Below, in pieces: positions 1 to 60,699 of a stretch of DNA of 64,000 nucleotides (position 1 is its first letter; each line of letters starts with the position of its first letter). The notes beneath the pieces were generated by a model. It was not told the DNA's origin. It was given only the letters and a program-made list of their open reading frames with translations, and made no database searches. The DNA lies in NCBI GenBank assembly GCA_034401795.1, contig CM067365.1, positions 16,917,166 to 16,981,165 of the forward strand, written 5' to 3'. The stretch is from Chaetoderma sp. LZ-2023a (lineage: Eukaryota > Mollusca > Caudofoveata > Chaetodermatida > Chaetodermatidae). The translations under genes were made by a program, and so were the position numbers.

Positions 1-627
1 CCTGCGGTTAACAAAAACCGGCTCCTAAGGCCGGTGGAACTCAATTGTTCCGGTGGGGCCGTGCGACCATCGTCGCGAACATTAAACACAACTGTCTCAT
101 CCCAAGAATTTGTGTCACCAATATGCCTGTCCATAGCAATTTCGTGATCTATGGACTTACATGATTTGATTTGGTGACCTAAAAATATAAGTCTATACAA
201 TGAGTTTACCTAAACAATTATAATATGCTAGATAAAACTACTATAAGAGCATACGAAAATACGAGACATAGAGACAGGTAGATGAACTTTTAAACATGGG
301 GCTCCCGGAGGTACCACACAGACTCGTAGGTCCACAGAGGTATCCCCGCAAGGGAGGCTCCCGTACACGAGACTTAACTACTTAACTTAATATAAGTTAT
401 TATACCTCTAAGCTGAAAGGAAGAAGGTTATCTCGGACGAAAAGTTAGGTGCCTCACGTGGGCACTACTCATAGTGCTAGTTTGGGTGAGGGCTATTATC
501 CTGGCGTGGACCGTCGTCGCTGAATTCTTGCGAGAGGCAAGTGCCTCGCGCGGGCCTCCGTCTCGGGAAGGTGTCGCCACCGCTCAAAGCGGGAGAAGAG
601 TAGTAGGCAAAAATGGGCCCACTCTAA
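1..627 (-). mobile_element. Long-LTR Gypsy family, truncated LTR copy A
   Basis: The segment matches, in order, blocks found at 12031-12600 and 39315-39770: the ccagtggggccgtgcgacca block, the gaggtaccacaca block, and gagaggcaagtgcctcgcgc followed by ggcaaaaatgggcccactct. It is cut by the window edge on the left and ends at about 627, where the Gmr1-like pol relic starts. The LTRs read on the minus strand. It holds only one copy of the 51-base hairpin unit. Confidence 0.7.
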
Positions 628-649
628 TATTTCAACACTCCTTTTCGAA

Positions 650-1233
650 CATAAATAGATGTTGAAATGTTGAAGTGAGACCACAAGAGCTAAACACTCC
701 TTTTCGATTGTGGAGTATCTTAACTCCTGCTTATCAAACTTTCTCGAGAAATGGCACACAGGGTGATCATGTCCCTGACTATCTGCCTGCATTAGTACAG
801 TGCCTAATCCCAGATCACTAGCATCAATTACCAACTTCACTGGTTTTGCAAAATCTGGTTCAGCCAGTACTGGACTTGAATACAAAATTGCCTTGATCTT
901 ATCAAGAGCATCAGTGCATTCTAATAAAAAAAGAAAATTCTTTTTGAGCAAGTTCGTCATTGGAGCTGCAAGGGTTGAAAAATTCTTGCAGAATTTCCGG
1001 GAAAATTCAGCCATGCCCAGGAAACGCATGATTTCCTTACGATTTGTAGGGGCCAGGTAATTATGGATGGCCTCCACCTTGGCTGTTTTAGGACGAACTT
1101 TCCCTTGCCCAACTTCATGACCTAGATATGTCACAGTTGCTTTGGCAATCTGACTCTTTGGGAGGTTAACAACCAGATCTACTTCTTTCATTCGTTCAAA
1201 AATTGATGAATGGTTTCCACATGATCTTCCCAA
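650..1233 (-). pseudogene. Gypsy RT thumb and RNase H fragment
   Basis: The minus-strand frame reads KSQIAKATVTYLGHEVGQGK, the RT thumb/connection, then FLGMAEFSRKFCKNFSTLAAP. RNase H follows with KLVIDASDLGLGTVLMQ, CHFSRKFDKQELRYSTIEKE and CLALVVSLQHF. The first RNase H Asp (VIDAS) and the Glu of EKECLAL are visible. Homology stops near 655, before the last catalytic Asp, where unrelated LTR sequence begins. Confidence 0.8.
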
Positions 1234-1239
1234 ATACTC

Positions 1240-1640
1240 GAGTATATAATTACATCATCGATGTATGAATCACAATTTTTAATTGGTGCTACCAGTGTGT
1301 TCATAAACCTCTGAAACATTGAACCACTGTTTTTCATTCCAAAGGCCATTTTTAAAGTATTCGTAAAAACTAGAAGTTGTCACAAATGCTGATATTGACC
1401 TCGCTCGATCTGTTAAAGGTACTTGCCAGTAACCTTTTAGCAAATCAAACTTAGTCACATATTTCGCATTTCCGATTCTGTCAATACAATCGTCAATTCT
1501 CGGTATTGCGAAACTATCACCGGAAGTGACGTCATTAGCACCGCGGAAGTCAGTACAAAACCGGAAGCTGCCATCAGGTTTCGGTACCAAGACTTTGAAA
1601 AGACAAGGATACTGGTTACACAAAGATACTATGTCTTGTC
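1240..1640 (-). pseudogene. Gypsy reverse transcriptase, finger/palm part
   Basis: The minus-strand frame reads VLVPKPDGSFRFCTDFRGAND, then IPRIDDCIDRIGNAKYVTKF and DLLKGYWQVPLTDRA. These are RT blocks 1-3, with the first catalytic Asp in KFDLLKGYW. The YxDD block is damaged: near 1245-1265 a Tyr-Ile-Asp-Asp-like stretch is visible in another frame beside a frameshift. Confidence 0.8.
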
Positions 1641-1656
1641 TCTGATTATCCTTTAA

Positions 1657-2202
1657 CTAGGACAATGCGTCGGACAATAACGATAAAGCATTTGTGTTGT
1701 TCATCTTTGGCTCGCATATTTTCTCAGTTGTTGATGTGAGATCAATGACGTCATCAAGGTGGAATAACTTTTTATCCACTTGTAAGATGACCACATCCTT
1801 GCAAGGAATAGTGACGTCACGATCAATATACTCGCATAAAAGATTGACATGGCAACATTGGAGGGCTTTACGTTTTCCTGGGGTTTTAATCCAGTAATTC
1901 AAATCACCATCACGACTTGTGATAACGTAAGGACCTTCATATTTCGCTTGTAAAGGATTACTTGTCACTGTAGTCAGCTTTAGGACTTTATCACCAACTA
2001 TGAAACTTCGCTCTCTAGCATTTTTATCATACCACCGCTTATGCTCGTTCTGGCTACTCTTCAGATTTTCTGCTGCAAAATCGTGTGTCATACTTAACTG
2101 TGTATGTAAATTGGTGATGTAAACAATTAGATTACTATCCGAGCGCAGAGTTAATAGTTGCTCTTTCAATACAGTTAAAGGAATTCTTAGCATTTTTATC
2201 AT
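1657..2202 (-). pseudogene. Gypsy integrase C-terminal region
   Basis: The minus frame reads HKRWYDKNARERSFIVGDKV then LKLTTVTSNPLQAKYEGPYV. This is the linker and GPY/F module at the integrase C-terminus (GDKVL, L-KYEGPY-V). It lies directly upstream, in the minus sense, of RT at 1640, confirming integrase-before-RT order. Its N-terminal part is repeated in the tandem duplication next door. Confidence 0.75.
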
Positions 2203-2359
2203 ACCACCGCTTATGCTCGTTCTGGCTACTCTTCAGATTTTCTGCTGCAAAATCGTGTGTCATACTTAACTGTGTATGTAAATTGGTGATGTAAACAATT
2301 AGATTACTATCCGAGCGCAGAGTTAATAGTTGCTCTTTCAATACAGTTAAAGGACTTCG
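2016..2359. repeat. 172-bp tandem duplication inside pol
   Basis: The block starting tagcatttttatcataccac at 2016 restarts at 2188 with near-perfect identity through ctctttcaatacagttaaag. The 172-base offset is not a multiple of three, so the duplication shifts the integrase frame. It looks like a replication-slippage or template-switch event after or during retrotransposition. Confidence 0.85.
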
Positions 2360-2484
2360 GACTGTATGCCCGAATATAGTTCATTTGGAGACTATCCAAG
2401 TGATTCATTAACTGTATCGCGGATATAAAACATGAGCAAATCAACCCCTTGATCCCAATTGCATAAACTTTCAGTACAAAATTT

Positions 2485-2955
2485 TCACAGCATCGACCAT
2501 GTACCATGTATTCGTTCTAATGCTCCCTGAGACTCGGGATGATAAGCGGTGCTAGTTATATGCTTAATACCAAGTTCTTGATAAACTTGTGCGAAAATAT
2601 TCGATGTGAAATTTGACCCTTGGTCAGTTTGAATTTCGCGTGGTAAACCAAAAATGGTGAAAAACTTTAGCAAAGCTTTTACCATGGATTTTGCTGTACT
2701 ATTTCTCAGTGGAACGGCATCAACAAATCTTGTACTTGAACAAAGAATTGTTAGCAAATACTGATTGCCAGCCTTTGTATGACTGAGCGGTCCAACACAA
2801 TCCAAGACAATTTTTTTAAATGGTTGGCCAAACGCCGGAATCGGTGACAATGGCACTTTGACTATGGGTTGGTTTGGTTTGCCGCGTAACGATGGAAGTG
2901 GTCTTTTTACGGCCAAAATGTGGACCACATTGTGAGCCGTTATGAACCTGCTCAA
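2485..2955 (-). pseudogene. Gypsy integrase catalytic core
   Basis: The minus frame reads KKIVLDCVGPLSHTKAGNQY, then PREIQTDQGSNFTSN and STAYHPESQGALERIHGT. All three DDE residues are visible: Asp in LDCVGPL, Asp in TDQGSNF, Glu in PESQGALER. The spacing is that of Gypsy integrases. Upstream the HHCC zinc finger is broken by a frameshift near 2900-2950. Confidence 0.85.
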
Positions 2956-3784
2956 GTACTTTATACCTGTACTGCACAGGTAGTACTAATTGCTCTACCA
3001 CTCTGTGTTTATCATCTGGTTTTGAATCACGTGGAGTGTATTTATGTCTGAGGATTCCGCTATCCCAGTAATAACAGATACGGTAGTTAAGCCTCATCTC
3101 TGGATCACTAACCAGAGGAGATACATGCTTTAACCCCTTATCCTCCATTTGCAGACGTGCCAGTTCCCCAGAGCTGTACTCCAACTTGGGATCACCTGCA
3201 AACGTGACACAGCGATATGTGCTTTTAGATGTTCCAGCATCCACCTCCATCCCTGTCGGATTCATCACATGATCTCTAACTTGGGCGCGTGTAATGACAC
3301 ACGGCGAAGTTTGAGTTTGATAATCTCGACTATGCACACGCGTATCGATGCATGTCGGATAGTCATTGAGAAAACAAGTGTCATTACACGAATCGAGAGA
3401 TGGGAAGTCGGACACTATGGGACATGCCATGGAAGTATTCACTGCACGTCTACCCATGCATAATGCTTTAGCCTGCTCTGGCTTAATAAACAATGCAGCC
3501 AAATCATTTCCCAATAATAATGAAATTACTACTATAGGTACTTTCTTTACAACTCCAATGGTTACATTATGAATCTCGTTTGCGATTTCTAAATTTATTT
3601 TATGACGTGGAATCTTCACAAATTCCATTTTTACGCCATGGATTAATACGCTAGAACCTGTATATGAATCTTCAGGACACTGCAACAATGACTGTAATAA
3701 CAAGGTCTGTGATGAAGCAGTGTCTCTCAAAATGGTGACCGGGGTTGAAACAATGCTTGTTTTATTTACAGTTAAGCGAATCAC
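2816..3784 (-). pseudogene. Retropepsin and integrase zinc-finger start
   Basis: The minus frame opens with TILRDTASSQTLLL, a retropepsin active site (D-T-A), and LLLGNDLAALF, the C-terminal pepsin motif. Further on, PVQYRYKVLEQVHNGSQCG and PHFGRKKT carry the two His of the integrase HHCC finger; the Cys pair is lost through a frameshift. The order protease-integrase with no RT between them supports the Gmr1-like assignment. Confidence 0.75.
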
Positions 3785-3856
3785 CCCGGTTAAACAATAA
3801 TCTCTAAATAATACGTTAACTTCAGGAAATTTAGGTGGATCAACGACAGTCTCCTG

Positions 3857-4351
3857 TCATTCATAAGACGCAGATGAATTTAACTGATCGAATTCATCTT
3901 CGTTCGTTAACTCATTAGTTAATGACGGGTCAGAACAATCAATCAAATCAGATACAACTGACTCCTCAATTCCAATTGGCATGGATGGTTTACGACCTAC
4001 CTGAGCAAACTTACTCACAGGTTGAGAACAATTTGAAGTGTAATGTCCACTCAAATTGCATCGGAAGCAGCATTGGGTGCTAGCTTGATTTCTGTTTGGA
4101 CTTGTCAAACTCTGCCTCTCCACCGGTGAGTTGTTTCTACCATCCATGCGAACCGGGCGTAATACATTGTTTGTTGAAAAAGGTCTGTTTGGACGGTTCC
4201 TGTTTGGACTACCACTAGAACGCAAAGACGACTCTGCAGTTTGGCCAGCAGTATTTTGCTTGTTATATTTACAGTTAGTGCCATTTTTAAACGGTCTAAA
4301 TGATGTGTTATTGGTAGATGGAGTCCGAAAAGGTTGTATATTGACACTGTT
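3857..4351 (-). pseudogene. Gag C-terminal part with CCHC zinc knuckle
   Basis: The minus frame reads QCCFRCNLSGHYTSNCSQ, a perfect CX2CX4HX4C nucleocapsid knuckle near 4025-4075. It is preceded by an Asn/Arg/Pro-rich basic stretch and followed by an acidic Asp/Glu-rich tail. It is separated from the capsid by the SINE insertion at 4352. Confidence 0.8.
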
Positions 4352-4593
4352 TATAAGCCCTGTAGGTGGGGCTTAGAATACACCTTCCATATCCTCTGTG
4401 TGCCGTAAGAGGCGACTAAAGGAGGTAAGGGTGAGGTAACCATGACAGAAACCTCGAGTGCTGAAGACGGAGGTTCCAGGCCGGACGGCGCACTCTAATA
4501 AACCATGGATCCACGCACTTAACGCTTATGATCATGTCGATAGTCACTTACAGGACTGGCCGTATGATCAGCAAACGAAAAGAAGAAGAAGAA
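4352..4593 (+). mobile_element. SINE copy 1 (242 bp), inserted in gag
   Basis: A 242-base unit with an AGAAGAAGAAG tail is flanked by the 9-base target duplication gacactgtt (4343-4351 and 4594-4602). The same 242-base unit occurs in reverse at 47672-47913 with its own duplication. It contains ggaggttccaggcc, which resembles a Pol III B box (GGTTCNANNCC), and gtaagaggcgactaaaggag near its 5' end. No ORF. The insertion postdates the Gypsy element. Confidence 0.88.
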
Positions 4594-5079
4594 GACACTG
4601 TTCATCTCGACTAGATCGGCCGCAACCTCAAGATTCTTGACTGAAGTTTGAAGATCAAGAAATCGTCTCTGATGTTGTGGCAAATTAAGTCGAAATTGCT
4701 CGAAGAGCATTAGATTACGTAACTCTTGGAAAGTTTTAATGTTTTCTGACTTTAGCCAGTTATCAAAATTCTGTTGTAACCTCTTAGAATGATTTCTGAA
4801 ATTGAACTCCACTTGTTCATCTCTCCTGAACAACTGTCGATATGCTTCTGGAACCTTTGAGTATGCTCCCAAAACTGCAGATTGGATTTTCTGATAATCC
4901 TTTCGGTCATCAGAATTTAAACCATTTTCTGCTGTCTGAGCCCGACCAGAAAGTGCTGTACGTACTAAGATTGGCCAACTACTTACCGGCCAATTTAGGT
5001 CGACAGCCGTCTGCTCGAAGGCACTGAAAAAAGCCTCTGGATCCCTTTCTAAAAATTTTGGAACCAGTCGAGTTCCCAT
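4594..5079 (-). pseudogene. Gag capsid with SCAN-like fold
   Basis: The minus frame begins MGTRLVPKFLERDPEAFFSA and reads AYRQLFRRDEQVEFNFRNHS, then FQELRNLMLFEQFRLNLPQH. The pattern of a Leu-rich ELxxLMLxEQF helix, LP, and a terminal acidic VKNLEVAADLVE helix is that of SCAN domains. SCAN is known to derive from the capsid of Gmr1-like Gypsy elements. The frame is intact to the SINE boundary. The upstream gag start may be further right; ATG 5079 is simply the longest frame. Confidence 0.75.
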
Positions 5080-8000
5080 TATGTAAAGTGGAACCCAAAC
5101 CAGAAGACGTGAACCAGACTAAGTTAATTCAGATTAGCCACAGATGACTAGCTTAGCTAACCAAATCTGACCTGAACAAACTCAGTATCAAAATAACTTA
5201 TCCGAAAATACAGGGAAAATACAATACAGTTTACTACTAACTATAAAATAATAATTAAATCAGAGAGACTAAGTCTCACCATAACTACTAAATAATGCAA
5301 TTCTTACTTACTTGTATGATTAATGCCTTTACACCAACAAAAGAAATTTTCAATAGTGATAAATGCGTAGGTATCATACACGACTGACAACTGGTAAGTT
5401 ATCTCCCTTTACCTGTTACAGTTAATCATGCATCGGAATGCATTGATCAGCGCATTAAATCAAACACGTTTTAACTGTTTACCTTGCAAGACTGGTATAT
5501 ACTAACTCAAGGTTTCAAAGATTTATTATAATCTTTATGAAATCCGTAAGTCAATCTAACCTTCTTGCACGGGAGCGGAAAAAAATAACACTCAAAAATA
5601 TTTTGTTAAATGTATCTTCCGACTTCCCCATAACAAATTCTTAATTAGCTTATAGCTATATAGCTCTGCTCAATTCAAAAAGTGTTTTAAATTCAAGGGT
5701 TATCTCGACACGTGCCGAAATACAACATGACAATGCGTTACCGGTGACCAATACTCATGTTGGTTTCTGAAAATTGATTTCGTTGGAAATCTATCGTGAT
5801 AAACATTATATTGGTTTTGTATCAACAGAGTATCAACCCTCCTGTAACAAATTTGCTACTTGACCACAATATGCAATAACACTATCAATTGAGTGTCGAG
5901 AATATTTCAATGCATAATCAACGAATGCTGAAAAAAATACATTAATGTGGAGATGAGATGATACTGTGCTGTCGGTCAGAAAATACTCGTTTTAACCCTT
6001 ATGTTTTTTATCAATTTCTGTTCGACCAGTAATGTAATTTAATCTTTCATTATTTAATTGCCAAAACAAACACCGAAAATTGTTTTTCTTTTAATCCATC
6101 ATTAATGCTTGAATATTTTAATAGCCAAAATACATCTTATAGTGTTTTAAAGTTATAAGAAAAAATTAGTTCTCTTGACCAATAATATGGGATTGCAAAC
6201 TATACTGCATTTAACAACATTGCTAAAACTTAAAATATTTCAGCAATTCCGCAAAAAACCCAATACACAAATATAGCATACAAATGTGTTCACTTTGCGT
6301 AATTTAACCACTCATTTGCCGCTGACCAACGATAAGGAAGCTAGATATGGTTTGACGAGCCCCAATGTCACGGAGCGAGCCTCCCTGTGGTGCTCAATTA
6401 AGCGATTCAAATTGGAAAGTTGTTGTCTAGGGGTTAAATATCGGGAGGATCTCCATTAATCAATTCATTTGATCAGTATTGCTTAACTAAACCGAAGTTA
6501 AGTCAGTGCAATTATGACTCAAATGAATTCAAGATGGTGGATTGACAGAATCAAGAGACCCAAGATGGCGGTCTCTTTTGCAAATTGACTCAATGTGGTA
6601 ACATCATCTTTCGAAGATCTAATATGATGACCTCTTGGCCTCAGAATGACCTTATAGAGCGATCTCAATATCCAAGAAGATACAGGGTTACGAAATTACC
6701 AATCTGAAGTGTAAATCTATCGGAGACCCAAGATGGCCGCCAGTGACAATTCTAGGATTTACCAGACGTCGACTGACATTAAGTTAATGAACTTGGAAAT
6801 CGAATGATGTGTGCATATTATGATGTAATCATAAAGTGTGTCGTGATGGCGGACTGTCAATTCCTACTTGGATGACTCGTTGAACGACTCGTCGAGAATA
6901 AATTCTATGGTCCCATCTCAACGGTCGATGTATTGGTTGTTAATCAAGAATGTGGATTGGATATCCCAGACAAAGTTTCAAATTATTAATTCCTAAGAAC
7001 GCACTTAAACTAACTGGATATCATTGTTGGCAGCGAATGCATCAGAGAGGGTTAATTAGACAAAGAAAAACAGATACCCATATCAGTTGTTCAAAAATAT
7101 TTAATGTATGTATAGCATTTCAATTAAAAATATGATCAATTGCATAGTTGGATAAAACGGAATAAAATGGATGAGATGGACGGACAGTAATGGTATATCA
7201 CAGATAATTTAAATCAAGATTGAACGAATTCACGATGTATGCTATTTCAGCGAAAGTTGAAGCATCAGACATACTATAATTCGGTTTATAAATCAGTCGT
7301 TACCATAGAATAATTTGGCACAATGATTTCATGCTTAGCAATTAAGTTATTAGACGTTTGGTCATAATCAGTCACTGTTTGGAGTAAAATGTTAACCCAA
7401 CCATTTACTGCTTGAAACCGAAACGTATAAACAACAATAAACATAAATTTTTGACCTTCTTGTCTCGATAAGCGACGGGATATGATTCAGTTTAAATAAT
7501 GAATCGATTCCGTTAATTCGCATTGAGTCGAATTGTATAAAATCGTGTAACTCAAATCTTTACTGATTTTACCCGCTGGAAATAACTTCTATCATGCGTC
7601 TGAGAAATGTCAAATTTTGTAGGAATAGAAGATTAATATGAAAATTTACTACTGGAATGATTCATTCATCACCGACTTTCATTATAAGTGGTAGTCAGTA
7701 TACCATTAAGTAATTACTAACCTATACTAATTAAATAATTAAAATGTATAGTATATCATATCATGTTTGTTGGTGTAATGTCATACCAAAATCTGCATAT
7801 CTTTCGTACAGACGTAAAGACTGTAGTCCGTCATAGTTGAGTTGCTTGACCCTGGAGAGATGGTCGAAGAAGATGATCCGAAATAGGTCATGTGAATCCG
7901 GAATAATAATCGATATATATGTGTAATATAAACACAGGCACAGGAACATAAGGAGCATGACGTCACTGGCGAAACATATATGAGCAACACCCAATGTGGG

Positions 8001-53838: not shown

Positions 53839-53868
53839 TGAAGACAGGTAGATGTGTACAATGTTGTT
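53839..53868. repeat. Partial copy of the start of exon 7
   Basis: gtgaagacaggtagatgtgt acaatg at 53839 matches gtgaggacaggtggatgtgt acactg at 53879, 40 bases downstream, with three or four differences. The copy has an in-frame TAG in place of TGG and sits just 5' of the true acceptor. Confidence 0.8.
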
Positions 53869-53878
53869 CTATTTACAG

Positions 53879-54370
53879 GTGAGGACAGGTGGATGTGTAC
53901 ACTGATGATGCTTAGTGGGTGGAAACTGGAATATACCGCCGAATCTTCAAATACAACCTTCTGTCCAGATACGTTCTTGGAGTTCCTCAAGCAGCGTAGA
54001 AGATGGGTGCTGTCAGAAATCTCAAACCTGCTTCTCGTGTTTAAGAACCTGGACGAGCTCTGTAAGCGAAACAGGAACTTCTCCTTGGTATATGTCACGT
54101 ATATCATTCAGATGTTTCTTCTGGTTATTCTATCGCCATCCTTTTCCATGGTCATGTTGACCGGCGCCTTGGACATCGTCTTCGGAATCTCGTTCCTCAT
54201 AACGACGCCCATTGTCTTCCTGGCACTCGTGGTCTACATATACGTGTGTCTGAGGCACCCTATGGTTACCCAAGCAAGGCTAACCTTGGGTCTGACGAGC
54301 TTTCTGGGAGCGACAATGATGGCGATTAGTGTTGGATTTGTCTGGTATGTGGTTAAAGATATCCAGAAAG
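53879..54370 (+). CDS. Chitin synthase exon 7 (GEDRW, QRRRW, membrane helices)
   Basis: The acceptor is tctatttacag and the donor is cagaaag|gtaaga; 492 bases, phase 1 in and out. It opens with GEDRWMCTLMM, holding the EDR general-base region, followed by FLKQRRRW, the processive-synthase QxxRW motif that binds the growing chain. Four hydrophobic helices follow. The exon ends ...VVKDIQK plus one base. A partly diverged copy of its first 30 bases lies just upstream of its acceptor. Confidence 0.92.
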
Positions 54371-54406
54371 GTAAGACACTATATATGTAGGCCTATTAAT
54401 ATACTT

Positions 54407-54525
54407 CTACAATCTTAGCAAACATGCTTAATCCCTTCTATGTCAATCTCTGATGAAGAAAAAAGAGGTTGTCATTTTTTCTCTGAACTTTTAGGGTGGC
54501 CATCTTGGATTCCAAGATGGCCGAC
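54407..54525. repeat. Left terminal inverted repeat
   Basis: It pairs with 59170-59288 at roughly 75-80 percent. It contains the perfect 12-1-12 palindrome ggccatcttggattccaaga (54498-54522), whose half is a CAAGATGGCC motif. Confidence 0.75.
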
Positions 54526-54902
54526 TATGATTTATTATAAATGCTTGTATCTCACCTTCCAAATGGAGTAGAAACTTGATTTTAGATAAATAGAACCCAC
54601 AATCTTTCAGTTGACTAGCGATCTAGACCGTTCGCCCACAGGTGTTAATTATTTAATGATAATAGATGGACCGGGGTAACTTTATAAAATGAAAGTCAAA
54701 ACAAAATCTCTGATTTGATGCTGTACATTTCTATTTAGATGGCATATCATTACATCAATTTTGAAGGAACATTACTAATATTAAAACATTTAATTACAAT
54801 ATTTCTTGAACTTCTATAGGCAAATCTAGGTGATTGATATCCCAGACCAAATATTAAAATATCAAGCATAAGCTTTCTTATGTTAGTTGCATAAATTATT
54901 TC

Positions 54903-57900
54903 TTGGGGCTAACAAACACCTGGATTTTGCAGGGGACTAAAACTGCTGTTGCAGAGACTAGGGAAAACCACTTGCACAAGTTATGGCTAGTGTTGTCCCA
55001 CTCAATAATTCAAGCATGTAAAACTGACAGGCAGGTTACATTAAAGCCTAAGTCAAATGGTTCAGCATTATGCTCTATGTTTGATTGTCGATATTCTGTT
55101 GGATTGTCCTTGTATATGTATCATAACATCAAAAGTCAAAAAGCAGTATCTTTGCTCAGCAGCTGTGGTGCTGGTATATCCTATGCCCATGCCACTAAGA
55201 CCTCTAACAATATTGCTCCAGCAGTATCCAAGAACATCAGAGAGCATGATGTATATATGTGCCTCCAAGTGTAAATCAATCCGTGCATTAATGGACAACA
55301 TAGATAGGAATATAGACACCCCTCAACGGAAACTTGTTTCCATGGAATGACAATAGGAGTGCACCAGCCTACTGGTGAAGGTGAAACAGTAATTAGATCC
55401 TTGAATATCGGGCACATGAACTGTCTAATGAACTTATAGGTGTTTCATCAACTATTATTAACCTAGTTCCATGTTTGATTGAAAGAAATCTAAAACCCCA
55501 AGCAAGCCCACATTATGAGAACTATAAAATGGGCAAATATGATACAGAATTACAATGTTCACAAACAGATAGCATTGCTTTGATGGTGGTTCACTTCTTA
55601 AACAGAGAAACTAGTTCAGTAGATGTGCCTACATCTAATTCTGTCACTACATAGCACATCTGCTTCTTGAGCAGTTTGGGGACTTACAAACTGTTGAACA
55701 GTCATCGATGAATTTCGTCACATTTAATCAAACATCCTCATTACATACCAGTGAGCCAAGTACCTCTGCTAAAGAGTGTGACCAAAAGCAACACATGCCT
55801 GTCTGCTCAGCTTATAATTCACTTAAGTGCACTCCATTAGCTACTGATGTTCAAACTGTAATAGACAAGGCTTTTAATCTACCATTACTCAATGCGGCTG
55901 CTTATGAATGGCCCGCATTAGTCACAGCACTGGATCAACTTCAGATTGAACACACTGGTATCAGGGCCGGATAGAAAACTCTTAGTGACTTTGGATATTT
56001 CCTCAAGCTAGAATATCTAAACCCACAGTACACGGACAAATGGATCTTCTGTCCAGGACCTGTATACACTGTGCTGTGTGCGCTGCGTTGTCTGGGGAGA
56101 ACAATTGAGGGGAGTAGACGTTAAGAAGCATGCCATGTCTCTATAGCAGTGTTACAGTGAAAAGCCATCACAGCAGGGCAGTTGGGGCCCATCAATTAAG
56201 GCTTCGGGCCCTCTGTGATCCGTGATTTGAGGGTTTCCTCGAAGAAAGTCCAACAGTGTGTGACACGCTCAAGGGAAGTGCAAAAGGGCTTGCAGAATCT
56301 TGCAAGAATAAGGAAGATGTCCAGCAGGCTGATCATGCATTCTGAATGACTCTAGAGTCTGCTAATCTAGAGAAGTAATTGAAGGACTTTGACTATAAAC
56401 ATAAGACATACCAAATGTATGTTTGGGCACAAAGGTGCATGTACCAAGTCAAGACCCTCTTGCAATTTCAAACTAGCACACGCGAAGGTAACTAGCCATT
56501 GTATTTCTCTTCTTTGGAGAAACTATGTATATATTTCTTTGCATACATTAGACTAGACTATGCACCAAATATACCTGAGTTTATAGCTCGAATGCGTGAT
56601 GTGAATAACAAAGAGTTAGAGATTTGGCAAGAGTTTGTAAATTGTGACTTTACGGTCAACATACAATTCCTTTCACATGCCTTGGTATAGATCACGCAAT
56701 GGAACATTTGAATAAGAATACTAAGGGTGATGGCAGCATCACTGGAATTGCATCGTATGTCACAGCATTGGCCACATTCTGTCTTACTGCTCCTGAATTA
56801 GCACGTGTTGTAGAAGAGACTGAGAACGTACTTTCACCTTCTTCTTCCACAGTTAAACAACACCACTGCCTTTCAAAAGCGAAGGTTATTTGTCAGGAAC
56901 AGGCAATCATGAAGCTCAAGAACATCCTAATACAATGCAACCTGTTCCGATCATCGGACTCTGTAGAAAGTAACACTGCATGATGTATGTTCAAGCTCGT
57001 ATCAAAAGAGATTGTTGCTCCAAATATACAGGAAAACATCCTTAGTACAGAGCAGAGAGGTATAGAGGCTTTCTCTAAGTTTGTGAATGAGCGTCTCATT
57101 GGCAAGGTTAACTTGTGGAGAAAGATTAACCAAAGTTAAATTGTACACAATGACTTCAGCAGCAAAGGATATCAAACTCAATGTTGGCTCTGAAATTATA
57201 ACACTGAAGGCGACTACATTCCTCTTTGTTAGACTCTTGCTAATTGCTCGTTCATCCAGAGATGACCTGAAGGAAGTTATAGGCAAGCATGAGTTTCTAA
57301 CATTAACCGACTATTGATGTAGCCTGGCAGATCAGTTCATAAAGGCAATATTATACAGATACTAAAAGATCTGGTGAAAACAGACAGTGACAATACGGAA
57401 GCTTCTCCAAATAATTCTACGGATGATGACACCTCTCCTAAAAGTCGTGTGATCGATGGAATGGCAGTAGTTCAGGAAATGTCTATCAAGAGTTCTAAGA
57501 ATTGTGAAGATTTAGGTGCATCATATGTGAAACTGATTGATTATATGGCAAGTGGTTCTGCTCAGATTTGCGTAGTTTTGAATAATTACAGTAAGTCAAT
57601 CATCACTTAAAGAGGGAACGCGAGAGAGGTGCAGAGGAAAAAAAGCAACCAACATACTAAAAGATTCTACCCATTTTAAAGACCAAAAGTCTTTCCTTGC
57701 AAGTAATGACACAAAAAAGATTCATTGACTTTGTATCTTGCTGAGAAGCTCATCAAGACCAGTCCTAACCACAATATGATTGCAGTAACACGTCAGAGGT
57801 TGAAATCCAACATTGACTGCCACGATATTGTTGGAGTTAGCACACAGAAAGAGGCAGACACTTATTATTTTACATGTAGTAAAAGCTGTAAAAGAATGGG

Positions 57901-58720
57901 TTCCTTGTGCACATATATACAGAAGATAAAGATGTACTCCTATTGGCTCTGTGCAGAGTACTACAACTAAAAAGAGGTGCTGCAATAATCATGGGTAATA
58001 GTAAGAACCGACAAAAAGTATTGTTACAGCCCATATATGATAAACGGGGGGCCTGAAAGGCATCTGCTTTTGATCAACTGGCATGCACTTAAGGCTGTGA
58101 TGCAACAGGTCATATCTAAGGAAAAGGGGGAAAACGGATGCTTCACTACATTTATGAATTCAAATTCTACTGTTTTGAATGCAATGCCATGTCTAGGCAT
58201 AGGAGAGGAACCGTCACCAGAAGTGGTTACTGGTTGTCAGGAATTGCTATGTAAACTGTTTTGCCACAAGGATGGCGATATCGAGACAGCGCCAAATCTG
58301 AGATGACATCTATTTAAACAGGTCAATCCAAATGACAGAGTAGAGAAACTGCCTCCAACCTCTGGTGCTTGGATACAACACATCAAACGGGCTCATTTAC
58401 AGGCCGAGGTTGGCAACACGATCTTGTTCTGGATCCTGTATGTTCCGACCCACTAACGTTAGGATGGCTCAAAGAAGATGACAGGTTTGTTCCTGTGTTG
58501 TCAAATTTTCCACCTGCTCCAGAATCTATGACACAGCGGATACGGCCTTATTGTGGTGCTGGCAATTCTGAATCCCTTAATAAGCGCAGAGGATAGTGTT
58601 CCTACAGGAAGCACAACTTAGTAAGCACGGAACTGTGTAATTGTGCTGCCGATGATGAGCGGTGTTCTAATACAGATTCACATCTGAATGAAGTGGATGA
58701 GGACTGACATTTTGAGGAGA
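54903..58720 (+). pseudogene. Decayed long ORF of the TIR element
   Basis: A series of open stretches on the plus strand with stops and frameshifts. N-terminal: SCGAGISYAHATKTSNNIAP, then ALMDNIDRNIDTPQRK. Middle: AAAYEWPALVTALDQLQIEH, YFAYIRLDYAPNIPEFIARM-type (56550), EHLNKNTKGDGSITGIASYV, CLTAPELARVVEETENVL. C-terminal: QKEADT, VHIYTEDKDVLLLALCRVLQ, GAAIIMGNSKNRQKVLLQPI, then LLINWHALKAVMQQ and GCQELLCKLFCHKDGD; finally PPAPESM and a Cys-rich tail with CNCAADDERC. EADT, TEDxDVLLLA and the WHAL segment are arranged like the acidic and helix-two-turn-helix motifs of XPG/FEN1-type PIN nucleases. I recall this ORF type as a recurrent multicopy family of invertebrate genomes but know no formal name. 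Confidence 0.6.
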
Positions 58721-59169
58721 GCCAACCTCTCAACAAATGAATGCATTATTTGGATTGAGTCTGATAATGCATGCCAATGCTCAATTGTCATGATAAGCGA
58801 ACATTAACATAATGATAGGTATACCATTATGGCAGAATATATAGTTATAAGTAATTACACACCTAATTATGCAAATGTTGTATAGTTACGTTTTTGAAAC
58901 CAGATGGTTCATACAGTTTTGAAAATGAATGTTTTGTTTATTGTGCAATAAATGATTTCAAAACTGTCAAGATGATTGTATCAAAATTATATTTTCTAAG
59001 ATATGCAACATAAAGATTATGTAAATATCATTCAAACCCCTACATTATTTAATCTAAGAAGAAAAATGATGATAGATTATAAATCCGTGACCCAGAAAAT
59101 GTAGGTATGGACTCCAAAATCAATTCTATATCACATATAGAAGCTGATATAAACAAATAAAGAAAAGAA

Positions 59170-59288
59170 TGGCAGCCATGATGCAATTCAAAATGGCTAC
59201 CCTAAAAGTTCAAAGAAAAAATGGCAGCCACTTTTCTTTTTTTATAAATAAACATAGAAGGGATTAAGCATGGTTGCCAAGATTATAG
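59170..59288. repeat. Right terminal inverted repeat
   Basis: Reverse complement reads ctataatcttggcaaccatg then cttaatcccttctatgt and tgccattttttctttgaact. It matches the left repeat over about 118 bases with a few indels. Confidence 0.75.
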
Positions 59289-59353
59289 CAAAATTTTTAA
59301 CAAGCCTGAAATATCTGATATTTGCCAGTATACTATACCACGCAAACACACAT

Positions 59354-59446
59354 AGGCCGTGTTCTCACTAGAGAGTTAATCAGGAATAACGCCATACTTC
59401 AGTAGGGCGTTATTGCGGATTAAGTCTCTAGTGAGATCACGGCCTT
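59354..59446. mobile_element. About 92-bp palindromic element
   Basis: aggccgtgttctcactagag and agttaatcaggaataacgcc are mirrored by ggcgttattgcggattaagt and ctctagtgagatcacggcct with few mismatches around a short centre (ttcag). A GGCCGTG-type end is common in small non-autonomous DNA elements, but no parent is visible. Confidence 0.75.
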
Positions 59447-60375: not shown

Positions 60376-60578
60376 ATGGTTTTGGCGAGTTTAAGCAGTA
60401 CTATTTGATCGTGGTCCTTATGTCTGTGGTGGTGTATAGCGCTTTGCTCAGACCCTCGGATTCCTGGAATCTGGTGTATGGACTTGCATTTCTGATTGTG
60501 TTTCCGGCCATGTATATCCTTCTACCCTTCTACGCTGTGGCCAATATCGTGGACCAGTCCTGGGGAACCAGGGATGAG
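60376..60578 (+). CDS. Chitin synthase exon 8 (SWGTR motif)
   Basis: The acceptor is tttgcttacag and the donor is gatgag|gtaggg; 203 bases, phase 1 in and phase 0 out. It encodes GFGEFKQYYLIVVLMSVVVY, more helices, and VANIVDQSWGTRDE. SWGTRE is the conserved C-terminal signature of chitin synthases; here it is SWGTRD. The exon starts about 20 bases after a 110-base CTA microsatellite, which takes the place of a normal polypyrimidine tract. Confidence 0.9.
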
Positions 60579-60699
60579 GTAGGGAACTATTTTAATTAAA
60601 CAATGTTAACAGTAAACTAATATACCCAATCGACAAATAAAAACAAGCACAAACCATTGTTTCTAGTAATATTGGTGGCGCAGCAAGTTTGGAGCATCT

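Follow-up and report, generated by a model that had tools for sequence, protein, structure and literature searches.

A segment in the genome of the mollusc Chaetoderma sp. LZ-2023a is bounded by inverted repeats and holds the remains of a protein with nuclease-like motifs, which raises the question of what kind of mobile element it is and which enzyme moved it. A preliminary description took it for a terminal inverted repeat (TIR) element carrying a PIN/XPG-like nuclease instead of a known transposase. The window analyzed here is the whole stretch of 64,000 nucleotides at contig positions 16917166-16981165, and the host genome searched comprises 2.44 Gb. By likeness to published descriptions, the element has a probability of about three in four of being a cut-and-paste DNA transposon of the Academ superfamily (AcademX lineage), in the form of a decayed copy with internal deletions.

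Results

The whole transposon copy in the window lies at 54397-59335 (plus strand) and is slightly bigger than first noted, with homology among copies extending beyond the earlier limits of 54407 and 59288. The inverted arms consist of two pairs, 76% and 77% complementary, that span 54398-54536 and 59160-59297; the arms of the TIR-bounded 4.9-kb segment described before are therefore real, and its true ends are further out. The left terminal inverted repeat was placed at 54398-54536 (plus strand) by inverted-repeat detection and family matches in the genome, and the right one, including its outer end, at 59160-59335 (minus strand) by inverted-repeat detection, family alignment and a terminus match. 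The terminus common to the family of the window copy is TAGTATACTGGCAAATGT, and the right end of the window copy is at 59335, where positions 59320-59335 match the family terminus TAGTATACTGGCAAAT exactly. Comparison with other copies indicates that the left end is probably at 54397 in shortened form, about 27 bases being missing just inside it. The flanks are TAT at 54394-54396 and TAC at 59336-59338, an imperfect 3-bp target-site duplication whose register was taken from the duplications of the family.

The frame at 53842-54387, immediately before the element, gives a chitin synthase match in Pfam (PF03142, 40.8 bits, cut-off 27). A presumed splice donor, recognized by eye at 54370/54371, stands 26 bases before the element, so the insertion probably interrupts a chitin-synthase-like gene within what is presumed to be an intron. 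A downstream frame at about 60400-60600 resembles a further exon by eye, but has no match to chitin synthase in Pfam. Beside the element, 59354-59445 form a near-perfect palindrome with 45-base arms (89%), which is part of a different repeat family with 40 scored places among 1079 candidates in the host genome. Minus-strand frames at 496-5118 include stretches like gag, integrase and reverse transcriptase, and by eye resemble a Ty3/gypsy-type retrotransposon that has decayed.

The element is multicopy. A left-end query against the host genome gave 40 scored matches among 57 first-look candidates, own copy included, several of which are the second end of one and the same element; with the left end matching 40 scored places, the segment is not a chance arrangement. 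Thirty-two further loci were retrieved, 18 of them usable as pairs with both ends. Coding-region sequence is found in 29/32 of these loci (counted from the match table); L012, L018 and L033 are without it within the stretch retrieved, which in L018 holds only end sequence. Three loci (L023, L024 and L039) have flanks in common when the loci are compared. They may stem from a single insertion, duplicated in the assembly or as a genomic segment, so that not every locus in the set is independent. In L027, frames on the other strand that look reverse transcriptase-like and RNase H-like by eye suggest a nested retroelement inside that copy.

Target-site duplication was examined by comparing the three bases outside each terminus in 16 pairs (all 18 except L020 and L038). 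An exact 3-bp duplication is present in 11/16 own pairs vs 6/240 mispaired left and right ends, and there is no such excess at registers one or two bases off, nor at lengths 4 and 5. Two-base agreement at offset 4 reaches 12/16 in own pairs, yet also 184/240 in mispaired ends, because this position falls inside the termini. Exact duplication is lacking in L014, L022, L026, L028 and L034 (5/16). Copies have different flanks and 3-bp duplications of their own, and the TIRs and the coding sequence travel together; both bear out the earlier view of a TIR DNA transposon.

The coding relic of the window copy is far longer than the nuclease part alone and is not the single long plus-strand ORF first described. 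It is broken into many frames, the longest plus-strand stop-to-stop frame having 138 residues (54858-55274), and by tblastn it is collinear over 54921-58716 with residues 299-1560 of the 1565-residue frame of a relative, L041. The plus-strand remnants correspond to L041 residues 299-409 at 54921-55250 (E=1e-14, 37% identity), residues 477-882 of the middle part at 55424-56699 (broken, three tblastn stretches), residues 873-1463 at 56666-58411 (broken, E=1.5e-62, 32% identity), where E885 and the IDGM and EADT acids are retained, and residues 1296-1560 at 57898-58716 (E=2e-27). A plus-strand frame at 55045-55350, unaligned by tblastn in the window copy, contains DNIDRNIDT, which by eye is the counterpart of D428 of L041, the first of the DDE-candidate acids. 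The strings of the preliminary description (EADT, TEDKDVLLLAL, LLINWHAL, then a Cys-rich tail) are all present on the plus strand, the TEDKDVLLLAL region, LLINWHAL and the tail falling within 57898-58716 (frame list), and by eye a GCD triplet is seen in a frame shifted by one from that of LLINWHAL. A Pfam scan of nine broken frames of the window gave nothing above cut-off. The N-terminal Cys region of the protein is absent from the window copy; longer copies of its family, e.g. L028, L010 and L025, keep the N-terminal part, so the window copy has lost it.

Relatives with longer frames were reached through a 276-residue frame in L020 that contains QDTDVLLLAL and LTGCDTT. Against the host genome this frame gave 140 scored matches among 6807 first-look candidates (L020 itself included), the candidates being verified only where scored, and eight loci were taken from the matches for comparison. 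In L041 a single open frame runs over 1565 residues, with an N-terminal Cys region, a middle part similar to DUF6589, C-terminal XPG/FEN-like acidic motifs and a Cys-rich tail. Relative to L044, which has 138 residues before the same point, the first 39 residues of L041 are read in a different frame; L041 therefore does not count as a fully intact copy, and the parent protein probably exceeded its length by about 100 residues. In L042 and L044 the coding sequence falls into two frames each, and L041, L042 and L044 are 98.6-99.0% alike. L043 and L045-L048 make up another family, about 90-96.5% alike. These two related families have other TIRs and the same protein, and their ends likewise start with TAGT at the same position; L046 has TGG on both flanks (by eye). 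Near an L043-family element, a 269-residue minus-strand frame at L048:260-1066 looks by eye like a Tc1/mariner-type transposase.

Within the L043 family the dN/dS ratio ranges from 0.62 to 1.25 (ten pairs), and among L041, L042 and L044 from 0.23 to 0.58 (three pairs). Between the two families dN is about 0.5 and dS is saturated and not computable. This pattern is in keeping with transposon copies that drift once they have inserted. No relatives were found in prokaryote and viral contig collections, where 41 and 30 pattern matches were not confirmed. A literature text search with GCDTT-like strings returned nothing on transposons by title.

The middle part of the protein matches DUF6589 (Pfam) above the cut-off of 27 bits in L043 (53.8), L047 (43.9) and L046 (41.9) and just below it in L042 (26.7) and L041 (23.6). 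The DUF6589 profile gave 102 scored matches among 1025 candidates in the host genome and none in 14 control genomes. Three candidate acids for a DDE triad are kept in most copies (L041 numbering: D428 in 13/14, D637 in 12/17 and E885 in 15/17), D428 being outside the extent of the DUF6589 match. They fit a DDE transposase, and because 22% of 125 control acids (mean conservation 0.33) reach 0.75 or more, the triad is suggestive and not proof. A nuclease "instead of a known transposase" is accordingly unsupported, since the same protein has this long upstream part with DUF6589 similarity and conserved DDE-like acids; in addition, a DDE element with a nuclease and 3-4 bp duplications has already been named AcademX (PMC10045372).

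The C-terminal region contains IDGM, FDDY, EADT, DTD and GCDTT (GADNT in L041), followed by the Cys-rich tail. Among copies, the acids are kept in 17/18 (D of IDGM), 6/17 (D of FDDY), 14/26 each (E and D of EADT), 22/27 and 20/27 (DTD) and 21/27 (last D, GCD). Aligned relatives confirm the XPG/FEN-type order of acidic motifs noticed before: all seven XPG/FEN acids are present in order in L041, L046 and L043 (by eye, alignment A2), and L047 is without the second. The positions of the first two of the seven FEN1 acids are general knowledge, and the other five follow human FEN1 numbering. The last five acids are spaced much as in human FEN1, with E-x-D, 23, D-x-D, 56, D here vs E158-x-E160, 19, D179-x-D181, 52, D233 in FEN1. 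Motif order and spacing point to a candidate XPG/FEN-like nuclease domain at the C-terminus, which differs from the FEN1/XPG flap nucleases in being joined to a transposase-like part and in having no detectable sequence homology to them. Pfam scans of L041, L042, L043, L046 and L047 gave no XPG family, and in PDB searches the C-terminal part had either no hit or a single chance-level one, to a methyltransferase (E=1.4). Comparison of alignment A2 with the FEN1 segment by hhalign, a weak test with a thin profile (Neff 1.6), gave no match. Over the whole host genome, XPG_I_2 (PF12813) had three matches, one of them over cut-off (contig C9) and none among the 140 listed relatives. The homology to PIN/5'-3' exonucleases that the preliminary description anticipated was thus not recovered for the nuclease part in the Pfam, PDB and FEN1 comparisons.

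Discussion

Academ proteins have an XPG domain and Cys-rich regions, and proteins similar to the GCDTT ones occur in other animals. The single enzyme of the family most likely joins a cut-and-paste transposase to a flap-nuclease-like domain, a layout already known. In PMC10045372, the AcademX lineage (Kojima 2020, as cited there) has duplications of 3 or 4 bp and AcademH of 9 or 10 bp, a difference that is tied to the encoded nuclease (AcademX) vs helicase (AcademH). Given the 3-4 bp duplications of AcademX and the nuclease it encodes, the window element most likely belongs to a new Academ(X) family; the likeness (3-bp duplications, a candidate nuclease in the element, TIRs) is by description and not to reference sequences, the TAGT terminus and the DUF6589 match being observed in the elements of this genome. 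The size of the element is near the mean of 5565 bp given for curated bivalve Academ elements in PMC10294476, according to which Academ appears confined to bivalves among the molluscs studied. AcademH, a lineage of the same superfamily should the assignment hold, was set aside because of its duplications (9 or 10 bp vs 3 bp here), and the Pfam scans of the five relatives named above gave no helicase family. Points against the Academ reading are the DUF6589 scores below cut-off in L041 and L042, the position of D428 outside the DUF6589 match, the share of control acids as well conserved as the DDE candidates, the negative XPG searches, the D of FDDY and the acids of EADT kept in only 6/17 and 14/26 copies, the five pairs without exact duplication, and the disagreement of the window copy's own flanks (TAT vs TAC).

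That the Academ likeness comes from published description, not sequence alignment, and that no function is described for DUF6589 in the literature searched, would leave room for a DDE transposon from a different superfamily, named or not, that carries an XPG-like domain independently. The length of the duplications and the candidate nuclease nevertheless agree with AcademX as described in PMC10045372, as does the size with the Academ elements of PMC10294476, and such an origin is unlikely. The first proposal, mobilization by the PIN/XPG-like nuclease itself and without a DDE transposase, draws on the conserved nuclease-type acids of IDGM, DTD and GCD; given the long upstream part of the same protein, with its DUF6589 similarity and DDE-like acids, it is improbable.

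Internally deleted copies exist, L018 with only end sequence in the stretch retrieved among them, as they would if an unrelated non-autonomous TIR element had captured a nuclease gene. Coding-region sequence at nearly all retrieved loci and the two related families, which have other TIRs but the same protein and a TAGT start as well, make such a capture very improbable, and it was rejected because of these families and of the flanks and duplications of the copies. The preliminary description had also allowed for a multicopy host gene lying by chance between inverted repeats, a view to which the long open frames of some copies would lend themselves. It does not fit copies that differ in their flanks and have their own 3-bp duplications, nor the near-neutral divergence of the L043 family, and is scarcely credible.

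For the preferred reading, a decayed AcademX-like transposon, the parent element would have been roughly 5-6 kb long, bounded by TIRs that exceed 100 bases and begin with TAGT, and would have coded one protein of perhaps 1650 residues. This protein would comprise an N-terminal Cys region, a DDE-type core (the DUF6589 region, with D428, D637 and E885), the XPG/FEN-like domain and a Cys-rich tail. The Cys regions may help to bind the element ends, the DDE core would excise the element and join it with a 3-base stagger, and the FEN-like domain, if active as a nuclease, may trim flaps or help to cut the second strand; this division of labor between the domains is putative. A stricter version, with the FEN-like domain making a required cut (e.g. 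of the second strand) in a two-nuclease cut-and-paste reaction and DUF6589 forming part of the Academ transposase core, is speculative and rather unlikely to hold.

The claim of a transposase-free element is thereby corrected, and a function is suggested for DUF6589. With near-identical long-frame copies of a transposase-plus-nuclease element (L041, L042 and L044), this genome would suit testing the role of the nuclease.
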